Source: Tsukamurella pulmonis
GTDB taxonomy: Bacteria > Actinomycetota > Actinomycetes > Mycobacteriales > Mycobacteriaceae
Length of the DNA: 64,000 nt
Reading direction: 5' to 3'
NCBI RefSeq assembly: GCF_900103175.1
Contig: NZ_FNLF01000002.1
Span: 2,804,136-2,868,135, forward strand
Positions 2,774 to 42,327 of the stretch are shown in pieces. A program made the position numbers and the translations under genes. The notes beneath the pieces were generated by a model. The model made no database searches and had not been told where the DNA came from. It saw only the letters and a list, made by a program, of their open reading frames with translations. The stretch's first letter is position 1, and every line of letters starts with the position of its first letter.

Positions 2774-3994
2774 ATGGAGAAAGTTCATGAAGCGGAGGTT
2801 GATCGGCCTCCCGATGGCGGTGTGATCGATCGGTTGCGTTCGAGTGAAGTCCGACGGTGCCGTCTGGTGTTCGAACAGTACGCCCTCGCGGCGTCACTGC
2901 TGCGGGAGCGGGTGTGCGAGCGGATCGCCGCCGGTGTGGGCCAGGACCGCTGGCAGCAGGGCGTCGCCGCGGAACTCGCCCTGGCGCTGCACCTGTCCCC
3001 GCACACCGCCGCGAAGTTCCTCGCCCGCGCAGTGGAGCTCGAGCGGCACCTGCCGCACACCCGCGCCCGCCTGCACGACGGGGACCTCGCCCCGGAGGCG
3101 ATCCCGGTGATCATCGGCGGCCTGGCGCACCTGGATATCGCGGATCGGCAGACCGCGGATCAGCAACTGTGCGCCGACCCGGCGACCCTGGCGGGGATGG
3201 GACTCAAGCAACTCGCCGCCCACGTCGAGCAGATCGCGTACGCGCTCGATGCGCGGGCCACCGTGGACCGGAACGCCTCCGCGGAGAAGGACCGCACCGT
3301 CACCATCCGCCCGCTCCCCGAAGGCATGGCCAGGGTCTCGCTACTGCTGCCGCTGGCGCAGGCGGTCGGCGCGTACGCGCACCTGCGCAAACACGCCGAC
3401 ACCCTCCTCGGCCACGGCACCGAGCTCCGCACGCGCGGGCAGATCATGGCCGACACCGCGTTCGCCCGCCTCACCGGCCGCGCATCGATCGACGGCCAAC
3501 CCGTGCTGGTGAACCTGACCATCCCCGCGACCGTCCTGCTGGGCGATCGGCCCGGCACCGCGCACCTCGACGGCGGCGGCACACTGCCGGCGGAAATCGC
3601 CCGCAACCTCATCGGCCACGCCACCGCCGCGGGTCTCGCGTGGGTCAAACGCCTCTACATCACCCCCGAATCCGGCGCGATCGTCGCGATGGACTCCCGG
3701 CAACGCTGCTTCCCCGACGGGTTGGCGGAGATGATCCGCGCCCGGGACCGGTACTGCCGCACCCCGTACTGCGATGCGCCGATCGCGCATTCGGATCACG
3801 TGGTCCCCCACGCGAGAGGCGGGCCGACGAGCTTCGAGAACGGGCAGGGTCTGTGCGCGGCGTGCAACTACGCCAAGGAAGCCGAAGGCTGGACGTCCAC
3901 GGTCGGATCGGACCCGTCGGGGAGGCACACCGTCGAAACCCACACCCCCACAGGACATGTCCACCGATCCACCGCACCGTCGCAAGCGGCTTAA
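2774..3994 (+). CDS. 13E12 repeat family protein, DUF222 plus HNH endonuclease domain
   Basis: A 406-residue protein of the actinobacterial 13E12 REP family. The N-terminal ~290 residues are alpha-helical and match the DUF222 type. The C-terminus has an HNH nuclease domain: CRTPYCDAP, then SDHVVPHARGGPT and CAACNYAKE, with two CxxxxC/CxxC zinc knuckles around the His residues. Such genes are multicopy in mycobacteria and relatives; one copy is the integration site of phage phiRv1 in M. tuberculosis. Their function is not established. The stop TAA shares a TTAA with the stop of the opposing MerR gene. Confidence 0.9.
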   Translation: MEKVHEAEVDRPPDGGVIDRLRSSEVRRCRLVFEQYALAASLLRERVCERIAAGVGQDRWQQGVAAELALALHLSPHTAAKFLARAVELERHLPHTRARLHDGDLAPEAIPVIIGGLAHLDIADRQTADQQLCADPATLAGMGLKQLAAHVEQIAYALDARATVDRNASAEKDRTVTIRPLPEGMARVSLLLPLAQAVGAYAHLRKHADTLLGHGTELRTRGQIMADTAFARLTGRASIDGQPVLVNLTIPATVLLGDRPGTAHLDGGGTLPAEIARNLIGHATAAGLAWVKRLYITPESGAIVAMDSRQRCFPDGLAEMIRARDRYCRTPYCDAPIAHSDHVVPHARGGPTSFENGQGLCAACNYAKEAEGWTSTVGSDPSGRHTVETHTPTGHVHRSTAPSQAA

Positions 3995-4368
3995 ACCGAT
4001 CCGGAGGACCGCTGCGATCCTGCGGTATCGATCACGCCGTCGAGAACCTCCCTTGCCCGGACCAGATCGCGAATGCCCGCGTCGATGCGGTTGCGCTCCG
4101 CACGTAGTGTCTCCGTGAGCCAGGGCGTGGCGCTCGCGTTCGGCGATCCGTCCTCATCGTGGATGCACGGCAGCAACTGAGCGATCACCGTGCTCGTGAG
4201 GCCTGCGGCGAACAGTTCCTGGATGCGCACCACCCGATCGACTGCACGGTCCGGGTAGAGCCGCTGCCCCGCGCCCGTGCGCGTCGAGGCCAGAAGCCCC
4301 TTCTCCTCGTAGTAGCGCAGCGAGCGCACGCTCACTCCGGTGCGTTGCGCGAGTTCTCCGATCCGCAT
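3991..4368 (-). CDS. MerR family transcriptional regulator
   Basis: A 125-residue MerR regulator. The N-terminal winged helix-turn-helix begins MRIGELAQRTGVSVRSLRYYEEKGLL and is followed by a dimerisation helix. One cysteine (LLPCIHDEDG) is present, but no metal-binding Cys cluster of the MerR/CueR type, so a redox or drug-type signal is more likely. It is divergent from the Old Yellow Enzyme gene, with a palindromic operator in the 41-base gap, so it probably activates that gene. Confidence 0.85.
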   Translation of the reverse strand: MRIGELAQRTGVSVRSLRYYEEKGLLASTRTGAGQRLYPDRAVDRVVRIQELFAAGLTSTVIAQLLPCIHDEDGSPNASATPWLTETLRAERNRIDAGIRDLVRAREVLDGVIDTAGSQRSSGSV

Positions 4369-4376
4369 CTCTTGCC

Positions 4377-4394
4377 CCTCACACTGGTGTCAGG
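4377..4394. promoter_or_regulatory. Probable MerR operator between merR and OYE genes
   Basis: CCTCACAC-TG-GTGTCAGG is an 18-base palindrome with seven of eight arm positions matching. It is followed by TTTTAGCGT, in which TAGCGT (4398-4403) is a -10-like box ending six bases before the OYE ATG at 4410. An operator lying in the promoter spacer is the usual design for MerR-activated promoters. Confidence 0.65.
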
Positions 4395-4409
4395 TTTTAG
4401 CGTACGGGC

Positions 4410-5495
4410 ATGTCCCTCCTCACGCCGTACCGCAGCCGCACTCTCGACCTTCCCAATCGCGTCGTCATGGCGCCCATGACGCGATTGCGTTCGGAGCCCG
4501 ACGGCTCGCCGACGGTCGACGTCGCCGACTACTACCGCCAGCGCGCCAGCGCGGGTCTGATCGTGTCCGAGGGGATGTGGCCGCACCCGTCAGGGCAGAG
4601 CGAGGCGTGGGTCCCCGGCCTGGCGACCGATCGGCACGAGCGCGCGTGGGCACGGGTCGTCGACGCCGTGCACGCCGAAGGCGGAAGGATCGTCGCGCAG
4701 CTCATGCACGGCGGGCGCAAGGGACATCCCGGCGCCCGGATCGACGGTTCGATCCCCGCCGGTCCGTCGGCCGTGCCCGACGGTGACGTCCTTCACCTGC
4801 TGGACGGTTCGAAGACGACGTGGCCGCGCCCCGCAGCGATGACCGCCACCGACATCGCGCGGGCGATCGAGCAGTACGTAGCGTCAGCACGCCGGGCTGT
4901 TGCGGCGGGATTCGACGGTGTCGAACTGCACGGCGCCAACAGCTACCTGATCCATCAGTTCCTCGCGGACAACACCAACCTGCGTACGGATCGCTACGGC
5001 GGCTCCACGGCGAACCGGCTGCGGTTCGCCCTCGAGGTGGTCGACGCCGTATCCGACGCCATCGGCGCCGGCCGCACGGCGATCCGGCTCTCGCCCGGAA
5101 ACCCGCAGTTCTCGATGATCGAGCACGACCCCGCCACCCTCTACCGCGCACTCGTCGGGGAGCTGAGCGACCGCGATCTGATGTACCTGCACCTCACCGA
5201 CAACGACGACTACCCTGCACTCGGCGACCTCCGGCCGCGATTCGCGGGCACCGTCATCGCCAACGTGGGCGAGAACCGCGCACCCACGTCGGCGACAGCG
5301 GCGGAGCTGGCCCTCTGCAACGGCGCCGACCTGGTCTCCTTCGGCCGGGCGTTCATCGCGAACCCCGATCTCGTGGAGCGTATTCGGCGATCGCTACCGC
5401 TCGCCGCCATCCGGGAGGACGTGCTGTACGGCCGCACCGCCGAGGGTTACTCGGACTACCCCTGCGCCGGGATCTCAGCCGGCGGGGATCGGTAG
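4410..5495 (+). CDS. NADH:flavin oxidoreductase, Old Yellow Enzyme family
   Basis: A 361-residue FMN-dependent ene-reductase. Family hallmarks are the N-terminal LPNRVVMAPMTRLRS, the substrate-binding HGAN pair and DRYGGSTANRLRF. These enzymes reduce activated C=C bonds of quinones, enones and nitro compounds with NAD(P)H in the cytosol. It is divergent from a MerR regulator with a palindrome between them, which suggests induction by electrophile or quinone stress. The last 21 bases overlap the 3' end of the opposing hydroquinone-reductase-like gene, itself a quinone-related enzyme. Confidence 0.9.
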   Translation: MSLLTPYRSRTLDLPNRVVMAPMTRLRSEPDGSPTVDVADYYRQRASAGLIVSEGMWPHPSGQSEAWVPGLATDRHERAWARVVDAVHAEGGRIVAQLMHGGRKGHPGARIDGSIPAGPSAVPDGDVLHLLDGSKTTWPRPAAMTATDIARAIEQYVASARRAVAAGFDGVELHGANSYLIHQFLADNTNLRTDRYGGSTANRLRFALEVVDAVSDAIGAGRTAIRLSPGNPQFSMIEHDPATLYRALVGELSDRDLMYLHLTDNDDYPALGDLRPRFAGTVIANVGENRAPTSATAAELALCNGADLVSFGRAFIANPDLVERIRRSLPLAAIREDVLYGRTAEGYSDYPCAGISAGGDR

Positions 5496-24343: not shown

Positions 24344-24952
24344 ATGCCCGACCTACCATCGCGATCGCCAGCCGCGCAGCACCGTCGAGACCTGGTCGCA
24401 CGAAGTGCGATCGGCATCCTCGCGCAGGACGGCGTGCGCGCGTTGACCCATCGCGCGGTCGACGCGAGCGCCGGACTCCCTCCGGGATCGACCTCCCATG
24501 TCGCGCGTACACGCGAGGCGCTGCTGACGTTGGTGGTGGACGCACTGGCCGAATCGACTCTGGTCGATTCCGGGCGCGTCGCGACCTGGCTGGACGACGA
24601 CTCATCCCCCTTGTCGGTGGAAGAACTCGCCGACCATCTCGCAGGACTCGTCGAGACACTCGCGGCCCGTCACGACGACATGCGCGCGCGGTACGCCCTG
24701 ATCATCGAACTGCACGACTCCCCGACGCTGCACGCGAAATTGACAACCGGTTCGGAGGTGCACGCGACGGCACGGAGGATCGCGACAGCCGCGCTCCGCC
24801 GCGCCGGGCTTCCCCACGCCGGCAGCGATGTCGATGAACTGCTCGGACTCATGGAGTCCCTCGTGTTCCATCGTTCAGCCATCGATGAGCAGTCACCGGC
24901 GCACGCCATCCTTCACGCCTACCTGCGGGGTCGCGCGTCGACGCGGACCTGA
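24344..24952 (+). CDS. TetR family transcriptional regulator
   Basis: A 202-residue regulator with helix-turn-helix VRALTHRAVDASAGLPPGSTSHV, followed by a helical ligand domain. The ATG at 24344 lies six bases after TAGCAT, a leaderless layout; a GTG two codons upstream is the alternative. Two palindromes between it and the divergent hydrolase gene indicate self-repression and control of that gene. Confidence 0.8.
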   Translation: MPDLPSRSPAAQHRRDLVARSAIGILAQDGVRALTHRAVDASAGLPPGSTSHVARTREALLTLVVDALAESTLVDSGRVATWLDDDSSPLSVEELADHLAGLVETLAARHDDMRARYALIIELHDSPTLHAKLTTGSEVHATARRIATAALRRAGLPHAGSDVDELLGLMESLVFHRSAIDEQSPAHAILHAYLRGRASTRT

Positions 24953-25062
24953 ATCGCCGGAGCACGAGGGGTGCGATGCAGATCAGGCGAAGTCAGGCCG
25001 TACCACCGCGTCGAGCCCGGCTCACCGAGCCGACATCGCGATTCTCGCCTACCTTTGAAGTT

Positions 25063-26961
25063 ATGGCCGGTAACAAACGGAAGCCCACCGCACCGTCGAC
25101 CACGCAGGCCAAGGATGCGCCTCCGGCCTCCAGCGAGGCGCTACGCCGGTTCGTGCGCGCCCGCGCCTCCGACTACCTCGCCGATCCGAACGTGACCTCG
25201 GTCGGGATCGGCTACAAGGTCGTCGACGGCAAGCCGACCGACACCGTCGCCCTGCAGTTCACCGTGCGCCGGAAGGCCGCGCCCGAGGCTCTCGAGAGCC
25301 TGGGCACCTCGCTGCTCCCGGAATCGGTCGAGGTCGACGGCGTCGCGGTGCCCACCGACGTCCTGGAACGCAGCTTCGAACTCTCGTACCGCGTCGTCGC
25401 CGAGCCCGAGGCCGCACCGGCGGAGGCGAAGGCCCGCCTGGACCCGATCCGCCCCGGTATCAGCGTCGGCAACGTGAAGGTCTCCGCCGGCACCATCGGC
25501 GCGATCGTCTACGACCGCACCGACGGCACCCCGCTCATCCTGTCGAACTGGCACGTCCTCAACGGTCCCGACGGTGCCATCGGAGACACCGTCGTGCAGC
25601 CCGGCGCGTACGACGACGACCGGGTCGACGACAACCGGCTCGGCGTGCTGTACCGCTCGCATCTCGGCGTCGCCGGGGACTGCGCCGTCGCCACCATCGA
25701 GGGCCGCGGCTACGAACCCGAGCCCCTCGGGCTGACCGTCGCGCCCACCGAACTCGGCGAGCCCGAGCTGGGCGACAAAGTGATCAAGAGCGGCCGCACC
25801 ACCGGCGTCACCCACGGCGTGGTGCGCCGGGTGGACGTCGTCGTGAAGATCAACTACGGCGGCGCAGCCGGCGAGCAGCAGATCGGCGGCTTCGAGATCG
25901 GTCCGGACCCGCGGAACCCCGCGCCCGACAACGAGATCAGTCAGGGCGGCGACTCGGGATCCGTCTGGCTGTTCAAGGCCGCCAACGGGCGTCCCACCGG
26001 CGTCTTCGCCGGCCTGCACTTCGGCGGCGAGGCGGCCGGCAGCCCCGACGAGCACGCGCTCGCGTGCCTCGGCAAGTCCGTGTTCACCAAGCTCGGCATC
26101 ACCCTCACGCCGCCCGACGGTGCCCCGACGGCGCAGGCCGCCGGCGGCGCTCGGATCGGCGCCGGGTACGACCCCGATTTCCTCAGCACCGCGGTACCCG
26201 TGCCGTCGGTGGACGCGAGCCTGAAGGATGACGCCGTCGATGTCGACGGCAGCCCGATCATCGACTACACGCACTTCTCGCTGACGCAGAGCCGGTCGCG
26301 GCGGCTCACGCGGTGGGTCGCGTGGAACATCGACGGTGCCAGCCTGCAGAGCATCGATCGGAGCGGTTCGAAATTCGTCCTCGATCCGCGACTCCCCGCG
26401 GACACGCAGGTCGGAAACGAGCTGTACGCCGGCAACCGCATCGACCGCGGTCACGTCGCCCGTCGCGCCGACCTCACCTGGGGCAGCAAGGCCGAGGCGG
26501 AGCAGGCCAACTCCGACTCGTTCTACTACACGAACATCTCCCCGCAGGTCGATGACTTCAACCAGAGTGCCCGCCAAGGCATCTGGGGCCTGATCGAGAA
26601 CGCGGTGCTCACCGACGCCGAGGCGGAGGATCTCAAGGTCAGCGTCTTCGGCGGGCCGGTGTTCGGCGACGACGACCGCACCTACCGCGGCGTCGCTCTC
26701 CCCTGCGAGTTCTTCAAGGTGGTCGCGTTCGTCGGCGACGGGAAGCTCGTCGCCCGCGGATTCCTGCTCACCCAGAACCTCGATCGGCTCGAGGCCCTCG
26801 ATCTCGACGAGTTCCGCGCCTACCAGGTGAGCCTGACGACGATCGAAGAGCGGACCAAGTTGCGCTTCCCGGATGAGCTCCGCACCGGTGACACCTACAG
26901 CGCGCCGGAGGACATATCTGACTACGAACCATTGGCCAGTCTGGGCGATATCGCCTGGTAG
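25063..26961 (+). CDS. Fusion of trypsin-like protease domain and DNA/RNA non-specific endonuclease
   Basis: A 632-residue two-domain protein. Residues ~130-345 form a trypsin-like fold with all three catalytic residues: His164 in SNWHVL, Asp206 in GDCAVA and Ser298 in QGGDSGS. Residues ~390-620 form a beta-beta-alpha metal nuclease: DRGH at 461-464, followed by TNISPQ and FNQ. There is no signal peptide. TACCTT ends seven bases before the ATG. A protease joined to a nuclease suggests activation by proteolysis, as in conflict systems (inference). It borders the HEPN island. Confidence 0.82.
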   Translation: MAGNKRKPTAPSTTQAKDAPPASSEALRRFVRARASDYLADPNVTSVGIGYKVVDGKPTDTVALQFTVRRKAAPEALESLGTSLLPESVEVDGVAVPTDVLERSFELSYRVVAEPEAAPAEAKARLDPIRPGISVGNVKVSAGTIGAIVYDRTDGTPLILSNWHVLNGPDGAIGDTVVQPGAYDDDRVDDNRLGVLYRSHLGVAGDCAVATIEGRGYEPEPLGLTVAPTELGEPELGDKVIKSGRTTGVTHGVVRRVDVVVKINYGGAAGEQQIGGFEIGPDPRNPAPDNEISQGGDSGSVWLFKAANGRPTGVFAGLHFGGEAAGSPDEHALACLGKSVFTKLGITLTPPDGAPTAQAAGGARIGAGYDPDFLSTAVPVPSVDASLKDDAVDVDGSPIIDYTHFSLTQSRSRRLTRWVAWNIDGASLQSIDRSGSKFVLDPRLPADTQVGNELYAGNRIDRGHVARRADLTWGSKAEAEQANSDSFYYTNISPQVDDFNQSARQGIWGLIENAVLTDAEAEDLKVSVFGGPVFGDDDRTYRGVALPCEFFKVVAFVGDGKLVARGFLLTQNLDRLEALDLDEFRAYQVSLTTIEERTKLRFPDELRTGDTYSAPEDISDYEPLASLGDIAW

Positions 26962-27101
26962 CGACCTTGGCGCCCGTCCGGAATCGCCGCTGTTCTGTCG
27001 TCCGCGCCACTCGAAACGCTGACCTGACGTACGCACTCAGCACCTCATCACGTGGCGGCACCTGATCTCAGCCAGCCGCGGACATGGAGTGACTCACCGC
27101 C

Positions 27102-27107
27102 TATTCT
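27102..27107 (+). promoter_or_regulatory. -10 box of the DUF4145 gene
   Basis: TATTCT ends six bases before the ATG at 27114 without an intervening ribosome binding site. This fits a leaderless transcript and confirms the start. Confidence 0.45.
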
Positions 27108-27113
27108 GCACGC

Positions 27114-27749
27114 ATGCACCTCACCAACACCTGCTGGTCCTGCGGCGTACTGACCGGACACGTGCTTATCGAAGCGCGAACGGATTCAGACGATGACGGC
27201 GAGTACCGAGTGCAGGGTGCGTTCTACTGCCTGTCTTGCAATGCTATGTCGACGGGAACAGTTGAGGTCTACCACACCTACGACGACTTCCGGGTAGATG
27301 CATTCAAGGATGTGGACAACGAAATCATTTGGCACCCGACAGCGAACTCGACGCGAGCATACCCAGACGTGCCTGAACACATCGCCAGTCCGGCCACGGA
27401 AGCGTTCGAGTGCTGCGCGGCCGGACATCTACGAGCTGCAATTATTCTCGCCCGAGCGGTGATCGAGGCAACCGCGAAAGACAAGGACATCACCACCGGC
27501 CAGCTCCACACCAAGATTGATGCGCTTGCGAACCAGGGATTCATCCGAGCACATATCAAGGAAGCCGCTCACGAGATCCGCAACGTCGGCAATGACATGG
27601 CACATGGCGATTTCGATGACCCGATCACCCGCCCAACAGCCGACCTCGTGATCGCACTCATGGAGGAGATCCTTAACGAGGTCTACCAGTCGCCGGCGAA
27701 GGTCAAGAAACTTCAAGCCGCCCGCGCCGCAGCCAACGCGACTAGATAG
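27114..27749 (+). CDS. DUF4145 (HEPN-like) protein with zinc ribbon
   Basis: A 211-residue protein. Cys7-x2-Cys10 and Cys39-x2-Cys42 make an N-terminal zinc ribbon. The C-terminal half is a DUF4145/HEPN-type helical domain: HLRAAIILARAVIEATAKDK and EIRNVGNDMAHGD, with Arg156 and His164. HEPN proteins are often RNases in toxin-antitoxin and anti-phage systems; DUF4145 members occur with restriction-modification genes. The sequence is clearly less GC-rich than the flanks. It begins the island that ends at tRNA-Leu. Confidence 0.75.
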   Translation: MHLTNTCWSCGVLTGHVLIEARTDSDDDGEYRVQGAFYCLSCNAMSTGTVEVYHTYDDFRVDAFKDVDNEIIWHPTANSTRAYPDVPEHIASPATEAFECCAAGHLRAAIILARAVIEATAKDKDITTGQLHTKIDALANQGFIRAHIKEAAHEIRNVGNDMAHGDFDDPITRPTADLVIALMEEILNEVYQSPAKVKKLQAARAAANATR

Positions 27750-27794
27750 GTCAATCTGGATCCGGAGTCCGGCGATCGAGCGATCAGTGATCCA

Positions 27795-28037
27795 ATGGCG
27801 GTCAACCATTCGACCGACAAAGGGGCAGCTCTCGGGGGTGTCCTCTTCATGCTCGTCTCGCAGTGGATGGGCCACGCGCAGTACACGCTCACCCTCGACA
27901 CCTATGGCGACTGGATTCCAAGCCAGGACGGCGGCACGCTTAACACGCTGCCTGCCCCGGCTCCGGCCACGGACACCGCGCCTCTCGCGGAGGCTAAGCC
28001 GAACCTTGCTCCGGTGATTCAACTATTTAGGCGATAG
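27795..28037 (+). pseudogene. Tyrosine recombinase/integrase, C-terminal remnant
   Basis: An 80-codon frame reads as the C-terminal end of a phage-type integrase: VSQWMGHAQYTLTLDTYGDW holds the GH (His27) and the active-site tyrosine (Tyr37), followed by a typical linker tail. The Arg-His-Arg part of the catalytic domain and the N-terminal DNA-binding domain are missing. It is a leftover of a mobile element that may have used the nearby tRNA-Leu as target. ATG here is only the first in frame, not a real start. Confidence 0.7.
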
Positions 28038-28060
28038 ATTCAAAGCTCCGAAAGCAAAGT

Positions 28061-28627
28061 TCACCAATTTAGCCAACTACCAGTCAAGATGTTTAGCGTG
28101 AGACTCTCGATGAATACAACCGCCTCTTCCCTGCCGGGCTTATAGCCCGTCGGATGCCCACATCTGTTGCGCAGATTCAAGCGCTCAATCAACACTTGCC
28201 GGGCGTTTCTGTTGTACATTCCAACATCCTCGCCCAACTGAATGAACTGGGATTCACTAAGATAAAGCAGGTCATCTGACTTCTTGACCTCACGATAATT
28301 CTTAGAACTTCCGTAGCGCGACAGATTCTTGGCCTGAATATCTTTCACGCCATTCTTTCGCCCCGCCACAACGCCATAGAGGTGTTCGATCGTAGCCGCC
28401 CAGGTCATGAGAATCGCTGCTCGATAGAGTCCATTCTCGTACGCCGACACCGCTTCTCGCAGGTAGTCTGCATACTTCTCGGGCGCCGCATTCCGCGCCT
28501 CCACAAGGGATTGTAGAGCTTTCGCAGGAGACTCATGTTGCGAGTCTCGCACTCGCGCAGGATATAGCTCCTGAAGCGTCTTAAGCTGTGCGACGAGCTC
28601 CAACGGTTCAGACCGACTCGGGCGCAT
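28061..28627 (-). CDS. HEPN-like protein, putative RNase toxin
   Basis: A 188-residue, all-helical protein. YENGLYRAAILMTWAATIEHLYG is the HEPN core helix, and Arg153-x4-His158 in LRNRCGHPTGYKPG matches the RxxxxH catalytic motif of HEPN ribonucleases. Base composition is far from that of the genome (one 60-base line, 28201-28260, counts to 28 G+C). It overlaps the upstream winged-helix gene by 20 bases, so they form a two-gene cassette. The function (toxin or abortive infection) is inferred from family and layout. Confidence 0.65.
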   Translation of the reverse strand: MRPSRSEPLELVAQLKTLQELYPARVRDSQHESPAKALQSLVEARNAAPEKYADYLREAVSAYENGLYRAAILMTWAATIEHLYGVVAGRKNGVKDIQAKNLSRYGSSKNYREVKKSDDLLYLSESQFIQLGEDVGMYNRNARQVLIERLNLRNRCGHPTGYKPGREEAVVFIESLTLNILTGSWLNW

Positions 28628-29387
28628 CTGCCGGGTTGCTCAGAACATACTTTCGCATATTCTTGAAAATCTCGGCGACCGTCTCTGCGGTAGCATCAGC
28701 GGCGATGTGAATTTCTAGATTAACATGTACCGCGGGGCTTGTTTCAACGGAGATTTGTCGTTGATTTCCTTCCGGCTCACTATCGGAAGTAGGCGGGTTC
28801 TGAGGATGCTTCGCAGAATCATTATGCTCAGTTCCCTCCTGTGGAGACTTTCCTTGACGAGCCGTCACAAATGCTTCAATCGCGGACGAATCAGTTTTGA
28901 AGTATGAGTCGGGCTTTGCTTTAGCGCCCCTGGTGAACTTGCCGAGTCCAGCATCGCCAGCAACACGCATAAAGAAGATTACCGCGTCTGTCAGGGCAGC
29001 CCCTTGTGCTCCCTCCAACTGATCCTGGTGTTTGTCGTGCCAGTAGTTGCCGATAACTGTCTTCGAAGGGTCCTGAATCTTGCTGTGATGCATCCACTCG
29101 ATCGTCTCGACATAGAGGGGAACTTCACGAAGTGCAGCGATCATAAGAGGCTGTTTCACTTCCGCCTCAGTCGCGTCGGCGTAAGCCCGCCCGCGTTCAG
29201 AAAGTTTGATGTTTGTGCCATCACGCTCGAGCAATCCGATGCGCTTAAGCGCCTCGAGCTTTCGATTGTCGGCGTACTTGCTGTCAATCGTCTTCTTAAC
29301 TCTATCGATAGGAACCCAGCCCACTTGGGTCTTGAGGTACCCGCCGAGAGCATCGACGTCCTCGATGGTGGTCTTGATCGGTAGCAC
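28608..29387 (-). CDS. Winged-helix-like protein, first gene of the HEPN cassette
   Basis: A 259-residue protein. Residues ~25-70 look like a winged helix (RKLEALKRIGLLER then KLSERGRAYA). The middle is helical and is followed by a low-complexity linker (~180-215). The C-terminal ~40 residues (VHVNLEIHIAADATAETVAEIF) form a beta-alpha segment of a kind I recall from proteins next to HEPN or TIR genes, but I cannot name it. It is transcribed before, and overlaps, the HEPN gene, so it may be its sensor or antitoxin. AT-richer than the flanks. Confidence 0.6.
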   Translation of the reverse strand: MLPIKTTIEDVDALGGYLKTQVGWVPIDRVKKTIDSKYADNRKLEALKRIGLLERDGTNIKLSERGRAYADATEAEVKQPLMIAALREVPLYVETIEWMHHSKIQDPSKTVIGNYWHDKHQDQLEGAQGAALTDAVIFFMRVAGDAGLGKFTRGAKAKPDSYFKTDSSAIEAFVTARQGKSPQEGTEHNDSAKHPQNPPTSDSEPEGNQRQISVETSPAVHVNLEIHIAADATAETVAEIFKNMRKYVLSNPADAPESV

Positions 29388-29450
29388 GTCTCTCCAATAT
29401 GGGCTTCGAGGTGGGATGGGGTTCAGAGATTATGGCACGAGATTCCGCCA

Positions 29451-29521
29451 CGGTGCGTACAACGCACCGGGATGGTCACGCTGTGGGTAGCACGGGGTAG
29501 CACAGCGGCGGTCAACGCACC
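29451..29521. repeat. Repeat-rich segment beside tRNA-Leu
   Basis: CGGTGCGT (29451-29458) and ACGCACCG (29462-29469) form an 8-base inverted repeat. AACGCACC recurs at 29514-29521. GGGTAGCAC is repeated at 29485-29493 and 29495-29503 with a 10-base period. The segment is between the island and the 3' end of tRNA-Leu, where integrase arm or core sites would be expected. Confidence 0.4.
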
Positions 29522-29562
29522 CTAGATGCGACCCGATAAGCCGCCTACCTGCGGCGATGTGG

Positions 29563-29636
29563 TGCCCCCGGTGAGACTCGAACTCACACTGGACGGGTTT
29601 TGAATCCGTTGCCTCTGCCAATTGGGCTACGGGGGC
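29563..29636 (-). tRNA. tRNA-Leu (anticodon CAA)
   Basis: The minus strand folds into a cloverleaf: acceptor GCCCCCG/CGGGGGC, T arm GTGAG-TTCGAGT-CTCAC, anticodon loop TTCAAAA giving CAA (Leu, UUG codon), and discriminator A. CCA is encoded at 29562-29560. Two oddities: the variable loop has only about five bases, whereas most bacterial tRNA-Leu have a long variable arm, and the anticodon stem has an A-C mismatch at 31-39. Short tRNA-Leu(CAA) genes are annotated in mycobacteria. It borders the HEPN island. Confidence 0.85.
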
Positions 29637-29673
29637 GTCCGGCGGACCGTCGGAAACAGTCAGCCGAGCAAGC

Positions 29674-30789
29674 TTACCGGGCGGGGTCGGCGGCCTCGGA
29701 CTCGGCGTCCACGGAGGCGAGGAAGCCGTCGATCACGGGCCAGGTCTCGCGGACGGCATCGGGGCCGGCGACGAGGCCGAGGTGGCTGGACTCGACGGTC
29801 GCGAACTCCACCCGCGGCGAGCCGGTGAACAGGTCCACGCCGTGGTGCGCGGTCTCCCACGCGCACAGGGCGTCCCGGTGCGAGCCGAACAGCTGCACGG
29901 GCACGTCGATGGCGCGCAGGTCCACGACGGTCTCGCCCAGGGTCACACGACCGTCCGCCAGCTCGCCGCGGAAGATCAGCCGCTCCCAGAGCTGGCGAGC
30001 CAGCTTGCCGGGGTAGCCCGGGAAGGTGCGCTGGAAGCGGTCGATGACCTCCATGCGTGCCAGCTTCTCGGGCTCGCCGAGGTTCTCCAGCACGAACTTG
30101 GGCTTCTTGAGCTCGCGGTCCCACGACGTGGCGCGGTAGGCCACCTGCACGATCGGCGCGGGGATGCCGCCCATGAGCGCGATGAGCACGCCGGGGCCGA
30201 AGCCGTCGACGGGCTTCATCAACGACGTCACGAGCGGGTACGGCGGCTGCGCCGCGTACTTGAGCGGCGTCGCGATGGAGACGATCGACCGGATGGGCTC
30301 CGTCGACGCGCCGGCGGTGAGGAAGGAGAGCGTGCCTCCCAGGCTCCAGCCGAACAGGTCGACGCCGGCACCGTCGGGCACCTCGCCGCCCCAGAAGTCC
30401 TCGAGGGCCCGGGCGATGGCCTGCGGGATGATGTCGAGGGCGAAGTCCTCGAAGCCGAGTCCGCGGTCCCCGTAACCCATCTCGCCGAAGTCGATCACGT
30501 ACGGAACCCGCCCCGTCGAGGCGAGGTGCGCGACGACGGAGGTCTCGGGCGAGAGGTCGTAGCAGGTGGCGGGCGCCGCGATCGGCGGCACCAGCAGCAC
30601 CGGCGCGGCGCCGGGCACGGCTGCCGCGGCGCGCGCCTCGTCGGAGGCGAACCGGCGGAGGGTGCGGTGCGCACCGTCGGCGACGACGACGTGCTCGGTC
30701 CGCTCGACGGGGCGGATACCCTCGCCCAGAGTCAGGGCCCAGAGGTTGCCGGCACGCTCGCGCAATTGAGTCAGGCTCAATACGTTCAT
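29674..30789 (-). CDS. PhaC-like alpha/beta hydrolase
   Basis: A 371-residue protein related to class III PHA synthases: VLLVPPIAAPATCYDLSPE near the start, then GWSLGGTLSFLTAG as nucleophile elbow and a late SSHLGLVAG with the catalytic His. The elbow has Ser, not the Cys of true PHA synthases (GxCxGG), so it may be a hydrolase rather than a polymerase. Many mycobacteria have this paralogue of unknown function. It is divergent from the pdtaR-like gene. Confidence 0.75.
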   Translation of the reverse strand: MNVLSLTQLRERAGNLWALTLGEGIRPVERTEHVVVADGAHRTLRRFASDEARAAAAVPGAAPVLLVPPIAAPATCYDLSPETSVVAHLASTGRVPYVIDFGEMGYGDRGLGFEDFALDIIPQAIARALEDFWGGEVPDGAGVDLFGWSLGGTLSFLTAGASTEPIRSIVSIATPLKYAAQPPYPLVTSLMKPVDGFGPGVLIALMGGIPAPIVQVAYRATSWDRELKKPKFVLENLGEPEKLARMEVIDRFQRTFPGYPGKLARQLWERLIFRGELADGRVTLGETVVDLRAIDVPVQLFGSHRDALCAWETAHHGVDLFTGSPRVEFATVESSHLGLVAGPDAVRETWPVIDGFLASVDAESEAADPAR

Positions 30790-37570: not shown

Positions 37571-39100
37571 TCACTGCGCGCGCAGCCGCTCCCACAGCAC
37601 GGGCCAGTCGACGGTGCGCCCGGCGTAGAGCACCGCGACCGGGTCGCCGTCGTCGCCGGGTGCGGGCACCGCGCGACGGTGGGTGAACGCCGCGTCGAGC
37701 ACCGGGGACGGCTCGCCGATCCAGAACACGGAGCGCGCGCCGTCCGCGGGGCGGCCGAAGTAGTGGTACGCGCGGTGGCCGCTGTAGGCCCGGGGCAGCC
37801 CCGCGTCGCGCCCGAAGTAGTCGACGGCGGCGGCGAACGGATAACTCTCGGCGACGATGACGGTGCCCTCGCGTTCCGCGGGGGTGAGCGTCGCGTAGGC
37901 GGCGACGACGCTGGTCGAGAGCCGCTGCAGGAGGCGGTCACCGTCGACGAGCATCGTGGCCGGCGCCCGCAGCGGCGGCGCGCCGATCCGCTCCGCCACG
38001 GCGGGCGACCACACCGGGGAAGCAGCGACCCAGCTCGCGGTGGAACCGATCAGCGCCACGACGGCGACGGCACGGAGCGCGCGGCGGGCCCGGAGCCGTC
38101 GGCGGCGGCACCAGTGTTCGACGGCGACGGCGCCCGCCGCCATCGGCAGCGCGTACACCGACGCGAGGTAGTAGGCGCGGCCGTGGGTGAGCACGATGGC
38201 GGCGACGACGAGCAACAGCGCGACGCCGAGGAACCGGTACGGCCGCAGGTCGCGCGAACGCAGGAGAGCGACGGCGCCGGCCAGCAGCAGCGGCAGCCCG
38301 ATCAGCAGGCCCGCGCCGAAGATCCCGACGAGCGCGAATCCCGCGCCACCGGGCCATTCGGCGCGCACGACGGCGCCCATCCGGGTGTACGCCCAGTCGT
38401 GCCCGGCCTGCCACCACAGCGTCGGCGCCACCGCGGCCCCCGCGAGTGCGGCGCCGCCCCACAGCGCGGGGCGGGTCAGCAGCCGCCGCGGGCCGCAGGC
38501 CAGGGCGCCGAGCGCGACGGCGATCCACAGGGCCGGCACCAGGAACTTCGTGAGCAGCGACAGCGCGGTCACCGCGCCCACGAGCAGCAGCAGCCGGTCC
38601 TGGCGCGTGCGCACCCACCGCACCAGCAGGTACACGATGAGCGTCCACCACAGCGGGTCGAGCGAGTACGTCGCGAGCCAGTGCCCCACCGCGCTCACCA
38701 GGGACATCGCGACGGCCGCGGCGGCGAAGACCTGTGCCCACGCGCGCCCGCCGAGCTCGCGGGCGATCAGTCCCGCGAGCACGGTGATCGCGGCGACGGC
38801 CAGCGTGGCCGGGAGGCGCAGCACGACGAGGTTCCCGTGCGCGAGGGAGTCGAGCGCCGCGGCGAGCAGCGGGACCAGCGGCGGCTGATCGAAGTAGCCG
38901 GCGGACGGGTGGTCGCGGCCGGCGACGACGAAGTAGGCCTCGTCGAAGAAGTGGCCGTAGTTGCGGCTGCCGATCAGCATCACGGCGAGCACGACGGCGC
39001 CGACGACGGCGAGCGGGAGCCGGGCGAGCGGCGGCGGCGCGGACGGCCGTGCGGGCGCATCTGCGGGCGTCGATGGATCTGCGACGAGCGGGGATGTCAT
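37571..39100 (-). CDS. Glycosyltransferase family 39 (GT-C) membrane protein
   Basis: A 509-residue protein with about 11 hydrophobic helices. The FDEAYF motif in the first external loop has the acidic pair expected of GT-C enzymes, and GYFDQPPLVPLL follows, as in ArnT/PMT-like proteins. It uses a polyprenyl-phosphate sugar to modify a lipid or protein on the outer face of the membrane. Donor and acceptor are unknown. It is upstream of lgt with 25 bases between them, probably the same transcript. Confidence 0.85.
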   Translation of the reverse strand: MTSPLVADPSTPADAPARPSAPPPLARLPLAVVGAVVLAVMLIGSRNYGHFFDEAYFVVAGRDHPSAGYFDQPPLVPLLAAALDSLAHGNLVVLRLPATLAVAAITVLAGLIARELGGRAWAQVFAAAAVAMSLVSAVGHWLATYSLDPLWWTLIVYLLVRWVRTRQDRLLLLVGAVTALSLLTKFLVPALWIAVALGALACGPRRLLTRPALWGGAALAGAAVAPTLWWQAGHDWAYTRMGAVVRAEWPGGAGFALVGIFGAGLLIGLPLLLAGAVALLRSRDLRPYRFLGVALLLVVAAIVLTHGRAYYLASVYALPMAAGAVAVEHWCRRRRLRARRALRAVAVVALIGSTASWVAASPVWSPAVAERIGAPPLRAPATMLVDGDRLLQRLSTSVVAAYATLTPAEREGTVIVAESYPFAAAVDYFGRDAGLPRAYSGHRAYHYFGRPADGARSVFWIGEPSPVLDAAFTHRRAVPAPGDDGDPVAVLYAGRTVDWPVLWERLRAQ

Positions 39101-39196
39101 GGCATCGACGTTCGCGCAGCGGTCCTACCCGCGGTAGCGCCGTTCGGCGGCCCGTCGACCGACGAAAGGAGGTACCGGTCCCGTCGGGCCCGTCCT

Positions 39197-39202
39197 TACG
39201 AT
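39197..39202 (+). promoter_or_regulatory. -10 box of the sensor kinase-cyclase operon
   Basis: TACGAT ends six bases before the ATG at 39209 and no ribosome binding site is seen, so the operon is likely leaderless. Confidence 0.5.
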
Positions 39203-39208
39203 GACTGC

Positions 39209-40306
39209 ATGCACGTCGACCCCGGTCCCCGCATCCGCGCCGCCCAGGCGGCGCTGCTGGTGGTGTCGGCGATCGGCACCCTCGGCCTGGTGATGGCGCT
39301 CTTCCCCGCGCTGCGCGGCGCGGATCTCGGGCTCGGGGCGGCGGTGATGCTCGCCGCGTCCGCGGCGGTCGGGCTGCTGCGTCCCGTCCCGGCTGCGCCC
39401 GTCGTTGCGGCTGCCGGTTGCTACCTCGTGCTCGGGCCCTGGTCCGAGGCCACTCAGGCCGGCGCGACCGTCTGGGTCGCGGTGGCGGTCTCGCTGGTCT
39501 CGTCCGCGGCGGCGCAGGCCGCCCGGGACCGCCGCGAGGCCGTCCTGGCCTTCGCACCGTTCGTGGTCTTCGCGGCCGCAGTGGCGGCGTCGTCGCACTC
39601 CGTGTGGGGCGCGCTCGGCTCGCTCGCCCCGGTGCTCGGCGGCTCGACCGTCGGCCTGGGGATACGGCTGCGCGACGCCGGGCGGGAGCGGCGCGCCCTC
39701 GCAGAGCGCCAGGCCCGCGCCGACGAGCGGCTCGCGCTCGCGGCCGAGCTGCACGACCTCGCCACCGCCCGCCTGACCCGGATCGTGCTCGCCGCGCGGA
39801 CGGCGGACGAGCCCGGCATCGAGGAGGACGCGCAGGCCGCGCTCGCCGACCTGCGGCGCGTGGTGGTCGGGCTGCAGACGGTGGACGCACCGTCGGTCCC
39901 GCTGGCGACGAGCGGCGTGGTGGCTCCCGCCGAGGTCGGCGGCGCGATCACCGACGCCGTCGGCCGGGCCCGCGACGCCGGGCAGCACGTCGACCTGTCC
40001 GGGACTGTGTCGCAGCCGCTCCCCCGCGCGACGGCCGACTGTCTCGCCCGGGTGCTGGAGGAGGGCCTGACCAACGCGCGCAAGCACGCGGCGGGCGCGC
40101 CCGTCGACGTCGAGGTGAGCGCACGCGGTGTGCGTGTGCACAACCCGGCGTCCGCCGCGGACGCACGACTCGCGGCGACCGGCAGCGGCACCGGCCTGCG
40201 CGGCCTGGCCGCCCGCACCTCCCTGGTCGGGGGCACGTTGCGGCACGGGCCGGCGCCCGACGGTGGCTGGACCCTGCAGGCCGAGTTCCCGGCGGCGGCC
40301 CGATGA
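39209..40306 (+). CDS. Histidine kinase, NarL-type two-component sensor
   Basis: A 365-residue kinase. Five or six N-terminal membrane helices (residues ~10-150) form the sensor. The phosphoacceptor is His182 in LAAELHDLATARLTRI, followed by an HATPase domain with GLTNARKHA (N box) and GTGLRGLAAR (G box). It phosphorylates the response regulator encoded next, with which it overlaps as ATGA. The third gene in the operon is a lycopene cyclase, so carotenoid formation may respond to a membrane or light signal (inference). Confidence 0.9.
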   Translation: MHVDPGPRIRAAQAALLVVSAIGTLGLVMALFPALRGADLGLGAAVMLAASAAVGLLRPVPAAPVVAAAGCYLVLGPWSEATQAGATVWVAVAVSLVSSAAAQAARDRREAVLAFAPFVVFAAAVAASSHSVWGALGSLAPVLGGSTVGLGIRLRDAGRERRALAERQARADERLALAAELHDLATARLTRIVLAARTADEPGIEEDAQAALADLRRVVVGLQTVDAPSVPLATSGVVAPAEVGGAITDAVGRARDAGQHVDLSGTVSQPLPRATADCLARVLEEGLTNARKHAAGAPVDVEVSARGVRVHNPASAADARLAATGSGTGLRGLAARTSLVGGTLRHGPAPDGGWTLQAEFPAAAR

Positions 40307-40929
40307 CGGTGCGCGTGCTGGTGGCCGACGACGACCCGATCGTGCGGGAGTACCTGCGGTCGGTCCTGTCGGCGGAGCCGGACCTGGAGGTGGTGGCGAC
40401 GGCCGCGGACGGCGCCGCCGCGGTGGAGGCCGGGATCGCGCAGGCACCGCAGGTCGCGCTGCTCGACGTGCGGATGCCCGGCGTCGACGGGATCGTGGCG
40501 ACGCGGGCGCTGCGCGAGCTCGATCCGCCCGTCGCCGTCGTGCTCATCACCTCGCTCGACACCGACGCGGTGCTGGTCGACGGGCTGGCCGCCGGTGCGG
40601 CGGGCTTCGTGGTCAAGACCGCCGAGCCCGCGCTGCTGGCGGCGGCGGTGCGCACCGCCGCCGGCGGCGGTTCCCTGCTCTCCCCCGACGCGCTGGCCCG
40701 GCTGGTGCGGCTGGCCGGGGATCGCCCGCGCCGCGACGCCCGGGTCGACGCGCTGGGTGCGCGGGAACGCGACGTCCTGCGCGAGCTCGCGACGGGCGCC
40801 ACGAACGCGGAGATCGCGGCGCGGCTCTTCCTCGCCGAATCAACGGTGAAGGGCTACGTTTCGACGTTGATGACCCGTCTGGACTGCGCGAACCGCACCC
40901 AGTTGGCCCTGCTCGGGGCGCCGCTGTGA
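40303..40929 (+). CDS. LuxR/NarL family response regulator
   Basis: A 208-residue regulator. The receiver phosphoacceptor is Asp55 (ALLDVRMPG), with the DDD acidic triad at 9-11 and Lys ~104. The LuxR-type helix-turn-helix is GATNAEIAARLFLAESTVKGYVSTL. It partners the preceding kinase, its start overlapping the kinase stop (ATGA). Its own stop overlaps the start of the cyclase gene (GTGA). Confidence 0.92.
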   Translation: MTVRVLVADDDPIVREYLRSVLSAEPDLEVVATAADGAAAVEAGIAQAPQVALLDVRMPGVDGIVATRALRELDPPVAVVLITSLDTDAVLVDGLAAGAAGFVVKTAEPALLAAAVRTAAGGGSLLSPDALARLVRLAGDRPRRDARVDALGARERDVLRELATGATNAEIAARLFLAESTVKGYVSTLMTRLDCANRTQLALLGAPL

Positions 40930-41990
40930 CGCCGGACGTGGTGGTGCTGGGGCTGGGGCCGGCCGGTCGCGCCCTCGCGCACCGGGCGGCGGCCGCGGGG
41001 TTGACGGTGCGGGCGTTCGACCCGGCGCCGGACGCGCGATGGCGGCGCACCTTCGGGCTGTGGGCGGACGAGCTCCCCGCGTGGCTGCCGACGGGGGTCG
41101 TCGCCGCCGTCGGAAGTCCCCGGGTCATCGCCCGGAGCCGACGCGCGCTGCGGCGCGAGTACGCCGTGCTGGACGTCGATGCGCTGCAGGACGCGATGCA
41201 CCTCGACGGTGTCGACGTCCGCGCGGAGCGGGCCGGGCGCGACGGGCACGGCGCCGCGTTCGTCATCGACGCGCGCGGGCCGGCGCCGGCGAGCGGGGCC
41301 GGGGTGCCGCGGCAGACCGCGGCCGGGGTGCTGGTGCCCGCCGACGCGCACGAGCAACTCTGGATGGACTGGCGGCCCGCGCCGGGCGTGCCCGAGGGCG
41401 CGGCGGCGTCGTTCCTCTACGCGGTGCGGGTCTCGGACCAGGCGCTCCTACTGGAGGAGACCTGCCTGGCGGGGGCGCCCGCGCTCACCGTCGACGAGTT
41501 GGAGGTGCGGCTGCGCGCCCGGCTGGCCGCGCGCGGGATCGTGGCGGGCGCGCTGCACGAACGGGTGGACTTCCCGCTGCTCGCGCCGGGTCCGCGGCGG
41601 GGCCGCGGCTGGTGCGGTGTCGGCGTGCGCGGGAGCACGCTGCACCCGGCCACGGGCTACTCAGTAGCGGGTTCGCTGGCCTTCGCCGACGAGGCGGTCG
41701 GGGCGCTGCGGGCGGGGCGGAACCCGGTCGACGCCGACGCGATAGCGGCGCACCGGCTGCGGGCGGCGGCGTTGACAGCGCTGCTCGGTATGTCCGCGCC
41801 GGAACAGCGCGACTTCTTCGAGGTGTTCTTCGGCCTGCCCGAGCGGCATGTGCGCGGTTTCCTGGCCGGACGGTCCTCGGCGACGACGAACGCCGCAGCG
41901 ATGGCTGCGGCGTTCGTGGCGGCGCCGTGGGGGCTGCGCCGGCGCCTGGCTCGCGCGATTACTCCGCGGACTCCTCGCGGGCCGCGCTGA
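40926..41990 (+). CDS. crtL: Lycopene beta-cyclase, CrtL type
   Basis: A 354-residue flavoprotein-like cyclase. The dinucleotide-binding motif is LGLGPAG (8-14), and the family's FDPAPDARWRRTFGLWADEL and FLYAVRVSDQALLLEETCLA stretches are present. It closes the ends of lycopene into beta rings at the membrane, giving coloured cyclic carotenoids. It is the last gene of a kinase-regulator-cyclase unit, an unusual partner for a two-component system. Its last 32 bases overlap the opposing thioredoxin gene. Confidence 0.82.
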   Translation: MTPDVVVLGLGPAGRALAHRAAAAGLTVRAFDPAPDARWRRTFGLWADELPAWLPTGVVAAVGSPRVIARSRRALRREYAVLDVDALQDAMHLDGVDVRAERAGRDGHGAAFVIDARGPAPASGAGVPRQTAAGVLVPADAHEQLWMDWRPAPGVPEGAAASFLYAVRVSDQALLLEETCLAGAPALTVDELEVRLRARLAARGIVAGALHERVDFPLLAPGPRRGRGWCGVGVRGSTLHPATGYSVAGSLAFADEAVGALRAGRNPVDADAIAAHRLRAAALTALLGMSAPEQRDFFEVFFGLPERHVRGFLAGRSSATTNAAAMAAAFVAAPWGLRRRLARAITPRTPRGPR

Positions 41991-42327
41991 AGTCGGCCTG
42001 CTCGATGTCGAGAGCGCGGGCCTGACCGATGAGGTCCTCGAGCGCGGCGGGCGGGAGCGCACCGGCCTCGTTGTAGACGAGGTTGCCCTTCTTGAAGACC
42101 ATCAGGGTCGGGATGGAGCGGATGTTGGCGGCCGCCGCGAGGCTCTGCTCGGCCTCGGTGTCGACCTTCGCGAAAACCACATCGGGATGATCCTCGGATG
42201 CCTTCTCAAAGGTCGGGGCGAAGGCCCGGCACGGCCCGCACCACGAGGCCCAGAAGTCGACCAGCACGATATCGTTGCCGGTCACGGTCTGATCGAACTT
42301 GTCTGCGGTCATATCAACTGTTGCCAT
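41959..42327 (-). CDS. trxA: Thioredoxin
   Basis: A 122-residue thioredoxin with WCGPC active site (Cys30, Cys33), DFWASWCGPCRAF and the cis-proline segment IRSIPTLMVFKKG. It reduces protein disulfides in the cytosol, as M. tuberculosis Rv1471. Its C-terminus (QADFSAAREESAE) overlaps the cyclase gene on the opposite strand by 32 bases. Confidence 0.9.
   Translation of the reverse strand: MATVDMTADKFDQTVTGNDIVLVDFWASWCGPCRAFAPTFEKASEDHPDVVFAKVDTEAEQSLAAAANIRSIPTLMVFKKGNLVYNEAGALPPAALEDLIGQARALDIEQADFSAAREESAE

Follow-up and report, generated by a model that had tools for sequence, protein, structure and literature searches.

A winged-helix and HEPN gene pair beside a tRNA-Leu gene of Tsukamurella pulmonis: a candidate toxin or defence module with a C-terminal tail that also precedes effectors of other folds

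The window analyzed here, a stretch of 64,000 nucleotides from the T. pulmonis genome (4.78 Mb, two contigs), contains an overlapping gene pair (Table 1) that is best read as a toxin or defence module. Judging from the sequences compared, the C-terminal tail of the upstream protein of this pair also stands before predicted effectors of quite different fold, which is a larger finding than the HEPN pair itself. The toxin or defence reading is preferred because the same tail precedes recognized defence effector families, and it rests on these families and not on defence islands.

Table 1. Features of the gene pair and its immediate surroundings (positions in the window)
Feature	Position	Strand	Evidence or remark
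Tyrosine integrase C-terminal remnant, 80 aa	27795..28037	+	79% over 66 aa to the C-terminal end of the 319-aa L087 ORF, E 3e-33
Downstream gene	28061..28627	-	188 aa; predicted HEPN ribonuclease (effector/toxin)
R-x4-H motif RNRCGH (R153-H158)	28154..28171	-	Invariant in window + 6 divergent relatives, and in window + 4 orthologues
N-terminal helix of HEPN (residues 9-21), candidate tail partner	28565..28603	-	Low-confidence model; class-level similarity
Upstream gene	28608..29387	-	259 aa, GTG start; predicted antitoxin-like protein, DNA-binding through a winged helix, with a C-terminal tail
Beta-alpha tail (residues 217-249), proposed effector-docking segment	28641..28739	-	25/33 positions invariant (5 sequences)
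Disordered linker (residues 180-216)	28740..28850	-	pLDDT <50 for 180-223; gapped alignment
Second helix-strand, winged-helix-like element (residues 109-179)	28851..29063	-	Model
Winged-helix element 1 (residues 8-71)	29175..29366	-	AlphaFold model, block pLDDT mostly 83-92
tRNA-Leu(CAA), probable island integration site	29560..29636	-	3'-end copies ~8 and ~10 kb off in two siblings

The two minus-strand genes share 20 bases (28608-28627), as the earlier sequence-only reading of this DNA had described, and the pair is indeed AT-richer than the rest, its G+C being 52.9% where the window as a whole has 69.8%, with 28 G+C among the 60 bases of 28201-28260. The lowest other 1,327-base stretch sampled (50-base steps, outside about 26900-29600) has 64.2% G+C. 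The stretch 38001-42000 has 75.5-77.6% G+C with a strong AT skew. Co-directional genes that adjoin or overlap are a criterion for type II toxin-antitoxin pairs, and overlap is found in the window and also in the orthologous pairs L028, L033, L034, and L037, while the pair of L032 overlaps or abuts according to the start codon chosen. The window proteins are 79% (HEPN) and 73% (upstream protein) identical to those of L028, with synonymous sites saturated, and pN in both genes is 0.14-0.24 against L028 and L033, again at synonymous saturation, which indicates that purifying selection acts on both genes. A search of 27700-29700 for sigma-70-like promoters returned none.

The R-x4-H motif noticed in the downstream protein (R153/H158) is present, and its R and H are invariant in both HEPN alignments, a 7-row alignment (A1) of the window protein with six divergent relatives that are 21-29% identical to it and a 5-row alignment (A6) with four orthologues. 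Among the seven invariant columns of the former are R152, N153, H157, and P158, in a numbering that is one less than the R153/H158 of the latter. The N and P of this set are invariant among the orthologues as well. The model of this protein is helical (pLDDT 80.7), and an annotated HEPN protein, 2hsb, ranks second in its PDB search (E 0.34, probability 0.98, target TM 0.60). The four best matches, with E 0.10-0.90 and probability 0.63-0.98, are 1wwp (E 0.10), 2hsb, 2q00, and 5yep_C, the last (E 0.9) being the SO_3166-SO_3165 HEPN/MNT pair; 1wwp and 2q00 carry no HEPN name in the search output. Both this model and that of the upstream protein were built from 5-sequence alignments, and neither has a PDB match at E ≤ 0.001, with rmsd of at least 5.2 Å among the ten best of each. 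No match at the curated cut-offs of Pfam or NCBIfam was obtained for either window protein. Below that level, the HEPN protein reaches PADLOC PD-T7-3 (E 4.6e-4 across 34 residues) and the solved ‘Dandelion-hepn’ (E 0.0012 with the 7-row profile, 0.052 with the 5-row window-type profile), its body profile reaches the DUF4145-like class (E 4.6e-5, probability 68), and its relative in L008 has a DUF4145 match just below the cut-off. On its motif, helical model, and weak matches of fold and profile, the downstream protein is very probably a divergent HEPN, and RNase activity is predicted for it via R153/H158.

The winged helix, linker, and C-terminal beta-alpha segment first read from the letters of the upstream gene have counterparts in the AlphaFold model (pLDDT 72.1), which has two winged-helix-like elements, a disordered linker, and, inside the tail, a helix at residues 234-249. 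In the PDB, the whole model comes closest to chains of the BpuJI recognition domain, FokI, and Nt.BspD6I (E 0.016-0.033, query TM 0.36-0.42), and lower in the list (ranks 5, 12-14, 20, and below) are O-methyltransferases, repressors, and other winged-helix proteins. These neighbors are a hint, short of proof, that the upstream protein may read DNA, and the protein is predicted to be antitoxin-like, with a putative DNA-binding winged helix and a putative toxin-binding tail. PDB profile searches for solved relatives of the upstream protein or of the DUF5343 alignments returned nothing usable. Membership in DUF5343 was considered and rejected, as the upstream protein has no DUF5343 match and its N-domain profile compares to DUF5343 at E 0.0077 (probability 5). 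It reaches PADLOC PDC-M34A weakly (E 0.036, residues 172-246).

Homologues of the two genes are paired: the window-type pair occurs in six of six loci (the window, L028, L032, L033, L034, and L037), which were recovered through the tail, so that a solitary HEPN would have escaped. The orthologous pairs outside the window belong to five genomes, namely that of L028 (same class), Microbacterium psychrotolerans (L032), Kribbella soli (L033), Mycobacteroides sp. (L034), and Microlunatus parietis (L037). In searches led by the HEPN protein, 3 of 61 relatives and 7 of 396 genomes of the phylum had a match, both counts including the genome of the window, and no unpaired close HEPN orthologue was met in these two sets. 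The eight non-self HEPN homologues from these searches stand directly after a DUF5343-plus-tail gene (L003, L006, and L008), are fused behind an extra N-terminal region with winged-helix features (L002, L004, and L005), or form the head of long proteins (L007 and L009, the former starting 343 bases from a contig end); the HEPN family is therefore without a tail sensor in five of the eight, counting L007. The fused architecture (L002 476-1926, L004 1486-2930, and L005 1486-2754) has a small gene in front in all three cases, and in L005 this gene matches a winged-helix family weakly (HTH_45, 0.0035) and is similar to the fused region (hhalign E 3e-4). The tail-led search of the class gave matches in 6 of 296 genomes, including the window's own, and the distribution of the tail is therefore patchy. 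A viral scan with the HEPN protein and the phage searches gave no match.

Tail-led scans identified 37 loci, of which 36 were confirmed in the genome collection (from 103 pattern matches) and one in IMG/VR; the scan used a 5-row tail alignment and needs conserved peptides, and divergent tails will have been missed. An adjacent effector gene, defined as a same-strand ORF of at least 80 aa around the stop of the tail gene, is present in 37 of 37 loci, and its likely start lies between -23 and +13 bases relative to the stop. The effectors fall into five BLAST clusters, assigned before the effector starts were re-chosen: DUF4145-like HEPN (16), Ymh HEPN (12), window-type HEPN (4), SEFIR/TIR (3), and pPIWI-associating nuclease or pP_pnuc (2). 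Representatives of four of the five are named by Pfam or PADLOC, as SEFIR (PF08357, 2.8e-6, in L064) and bSEFIR (1.2e-21, in L063), pP_pnuc_1 (1.2e-12, in L035), Hypoth_Ymh (1.3e-27, in L045), and DUF4145 (5.5e-5, in L047), and the window-type representative L033 is without a match. The tail is included in all 15 hhalign comparisons between sensor classes, and a DUF5343 domain is present in the relatives L003, L006, L008, L045, L047, and L063. Sensor frames are interrupted or short in L036, L039, L046, L060, and L065. The interruptions in L030/L065, L036, and L039 (parts in different frames, with an in-frame stop in L036) are either assembly errors or decayed copies. In L048, a gene at 3873-5120 (+) encodes two tandem DUF5343-like copies with one tail behind them, and a Ymh HEPN comes next.

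The N-terminal domains of the sensors are exchanged as well. Across 44 pairs (the 37 tail loci plus the window, L028, L011, L003, L006, L008, and L029), classified with HMMs that were themselves made from sequences of this set, the DUF5343a domain occurs with DUF4145-like (11), RNE-type HEPN (4), and Ymh (1) effectors, the DUF5343b domain with Ymh (9), DUF4145-like (4), and SEFIR (2) effectors, and a third type with pP_pnuc (3) and Ymh (2) effectors. Three of the four N-domain classes are thus combined with at least two effector classes, and the window-type upstream protein was found with a single one (window-type HEPN, 6 pairs); two pairs with short frames were left out of the four classes. 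DUF5343a and DUF5343b are themselves relatives (E 5.5e-10).

Were the tail a common socket, a shared plug would be expected on the effectors, and their N-termini were compared for this reason. Effector bodies have no detectable similarity outside the group formed by the window-type, RNE-type, and DUF4145-like HEPN proteins, while a short amphipathic pattern is found in the first ~26 residues of the effectors. With anchors picked by eye, effector starts chosen by hand, and profiles trained on the other classes, the N-terminal site outscores every other segment of the whole protein in 32 of 44 effectors (window-type 3/6, pnuc 3/3, Ymh 10/12, DUF4145-like 13/16, SEFIR 2/3, and RNE 1/4). The site of the window's own HEPN ranks fifth, and its helix is modelled weakly (block pLDDT 48, 55, and 43 over residues 1-30). 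Compared to 150 control ORFs of the same loci, which are the longest ATG frames and in some cases possibly no genes, the empirical p is ≤ 0.05 in 29 of 44 effectors and ≤ 0.01 in 17. Summed over 12 class pairs, hhalign gives a score of 156.8, whereas 60 column shuffles do not exceed 100.7 and 60 sets of body segments do not exceed 121.2; single class pairs are weak (best E 2.7e-4). An anchor-free motif finder applied to the effector N-termini did not recover the helix; the anchor-free score of the N-termini (247.5) exceeds 12 class-wise shuffles (≤ 231.0) and is lower than those of internal (354.6) and C-terminal (383.9) segments, in which conservation within classes is dominant. An initial match between DUF4145-like and SEFIR effectors (hhalign E 4e-5) was distrusted since some ORFs began inside the tail-coding overlap, and after the starts were re-chosen it stood at E 0.016 for the full length and 2.7e-4 for the first 48 residues. 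The sharing of an N-terminal segment beyond the controls by effectors of different fold suggests that the tail may dock on the effector N-terminal helix. If the tail is such a socket, one interface would explain the exchange of killing enzymes between sensors, a short sequence would serve for finding further systems, and the question of whether docking restrains or recruits the effector could be tested with few constructs.

The pair lies between the tRNA-Leu gene on its upstream side and the integrase remnant on its downstream side. The integrase-like ORF of 319 aa to which the remnant is similar is located near the same tRNA in the sibling genome G010 (PF00589 at 2e-5, just below the cut-off); it adjoins a 382-aa ORF (L087 7711-8859, minus strand) with an RN-x3-H motif and no Pfam match. 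Copies of the tRNA 3' end occur in two further siblings, 51 bases (100%) about 8 kb away in G013 and 50 bases (98%) about 10 kb away in G005 (L088 1583-1633 and L089 3268-3317), which indicates that elements of this genus integrate repeatedly at tRNA-Leu(CAA), a hotspot. Within the window no far att copy was found, the sole exact match of at least 13 bases to the tRNA region being 13 bases at 24916, and the mobile element carrying the pair is taken as decayed. Beyond the integrase remnant is a DUF4145 HEPN gene at 27114-27749 (+) (Pfam 5e-18; PADLOC PD-T7-4, 4e-8; phrog_1305, 5e-28), which is probably further island cargo. The possibility that the window HEPN is a copy of this gene was rejected, as the two match over 29 residues (E 0.029). 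The 661-aa product of a gene at 24976-26961 (+) matches a DNA/RNA non-specific endonuclease domain (3e-42) and, weakly, a trypsin-like one (0.008). An Rfam scan of 27000-30000 returned the tRNA only.

For the defence islands proposed for survey around homologues, an uncontrolled survey (150 of 174 neighbor ORFs) gave some defence-type matches, but a clear island did not emerge. Among the matches listed (25 of 150 PADLOC and 25 of 104 Pfam families) are type I methylases, a Thoeris ThsB-like TIR, AIPR, RhuM, and PADLOC candidates, and the commonest Pfam families listed are ordinary, e.g., acetyltransferases in seven ORFs.

Type II antitoxins are recognized by their gene order, gene overlap, DNA-binding head, disordered linker, and short structured tail. 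The window pair has this same gene order and overlap and a predicted head, linker, and tail of this kind, which argues for a toxin-antitoxin reading. With the pairing, the conserved motif, the conserved tail, the swapping of effectors and N-domains, and the shared effector N-terminal segment as its observed basis, the pair is, on balance, probably a modular toxin-antitoxin-like abortive-infection module on a decayed island at tRNA-Leu, in which a restrained toxic effector would be freed on sensing and would act in phage defence. The HEPN protein would be the toxic effector, a predicted RNase acting via R153/H158, and the upstream protein would read DNA by its winged helices and hold the effector by its C-terminal beta-alpha tail, docked on the N-terminal helix of the effector. 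In the resting cell, the complex would keep the effector from doing harm and may also repress the operon that encodes it. On contact of the N-domains with foreign DNA, or on loss of the upstream protein, the HEPN protein would cut cellular RNA and growth would stop. Beyond the window, it is quite possible, if a little short of probable, that a plug-in immune platform spans several bacterial phyla, in which one tail and one effector docking helix combine at least four classes of N-domains (presumed DNA readers, with two DUF5343 subtypes) with several HEPN lineages, a pPIWI-associating nuclease, and a SEFIR/TIR protein, and of which the window would be a distinct branch.

The chief rival is recruitment guided by DNA, which we consider rather unlikely: a winged-helix activator would read foreign DNA like the recognition part of FokI or BpuJI and bring in an idle effector (RNase, DNase, or NADase) in a split, restriction-like arrangement. 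BpuJI, FokI, and Nt.BspD6I hold ranks 1-4, 6, 7, and 9-11 among the PDB matches of the sensor model, and effectors from different families are found with one and the same tail; however, these matches are weak, O-methyltransferases and other winged-helix proteins are listed too, antitoxins and repressors often have winged helices, and the gene order and overlap are of the toxin-antitoxin type. The same layout, together with the decayed mobile island at a tRNA hotspot, would also suit a plain toxin-antitoxin pair that stabilizes the island and has no anti-phage role. We regard this as improbable, since partner effectors elsewhere match the PADLOC defence families bSEFIR, Aga_Nuclease, and PD-Lambda-3_B, and the plasmid searches gave no match to the window sensor, nor to one DUF5343 sensor, although 4 of 72,556 plasmids have a weak HEPN match. 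A DNA-binding regulator with a helical protein of housekeeping role, outside any conflict, is very improbable: HEPN folds are known in non-toxic proteins too and the commonest neighbor families are ordinary, but the patchy distribution of HEPN matches, the low-G+C patch at an integration site, and the effector swapping speak against it.

The abortive-infection module favored here was initially thought to be of an unrecognized type, and this holds for the window proteins, which lack curated Pfam or NCBIfam matches, but not for their DUF5343-type relatives, which match PDC-M34A, a PADLOC entry whose prefix we take to mean a candidate. DUF5343 (PF17278) proteins bear the same C-terminal tail directly before a HEPN or other effector, whereas the window protein is without a DUF5343 match and matches PDC-M34A weakly. 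HEPN/MNT (HepT-MntA) is a two-gene toxin-antitoxin system with a small HEPN protein as the toxin. The window likewise has a two-gene module with a small HEPN, but identity with HEPN/MNT was rejected, as the partner is a winged-helix model with a tail and has no nucleotidyltransferase match in Pfam. PD-T7-3 and ‘Dandelion’ are the nearest sequence matches of the window HEPN, over a stretch of 34-47 residues, but they are longer (a profile of 432 positions and a chain of 460 residues) than the separate HEPN of 188 aa; no publication on Dandelion was found in the open-access literature. The effector families bSEFIR, PD-Lambda-3_B / Ymh HEPN, and the pPIWI-associating nuclease adjoin the same tail, but in the loci analyzed here each comes second in a pair that is led by a tail sensor. 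A search of the open-access literature found no publication that names DUF5343, PDC-M34, or pPIWI-associating nuclease, nor any for the combinations with SEFIR and HEPN that were tried, and the sections available to us of PMC3710099, PMC9519451, PMC10952713, PMC8195603, and PMC10440598 make no mention of the window pair; no description of the window sensor class or of the tail-plus-helix scheme appears to exist in the portion of this literature that was searched. The partner swapping of the tail proteins resembles the Panacea network, in which, according to the sections available, one antitoxin element is combined with many unrelated toxins (PMC10440598). The element described there is a globular domain, whereas here it is a short linear tail, whose partners apparently have an N-terminal segment in common.
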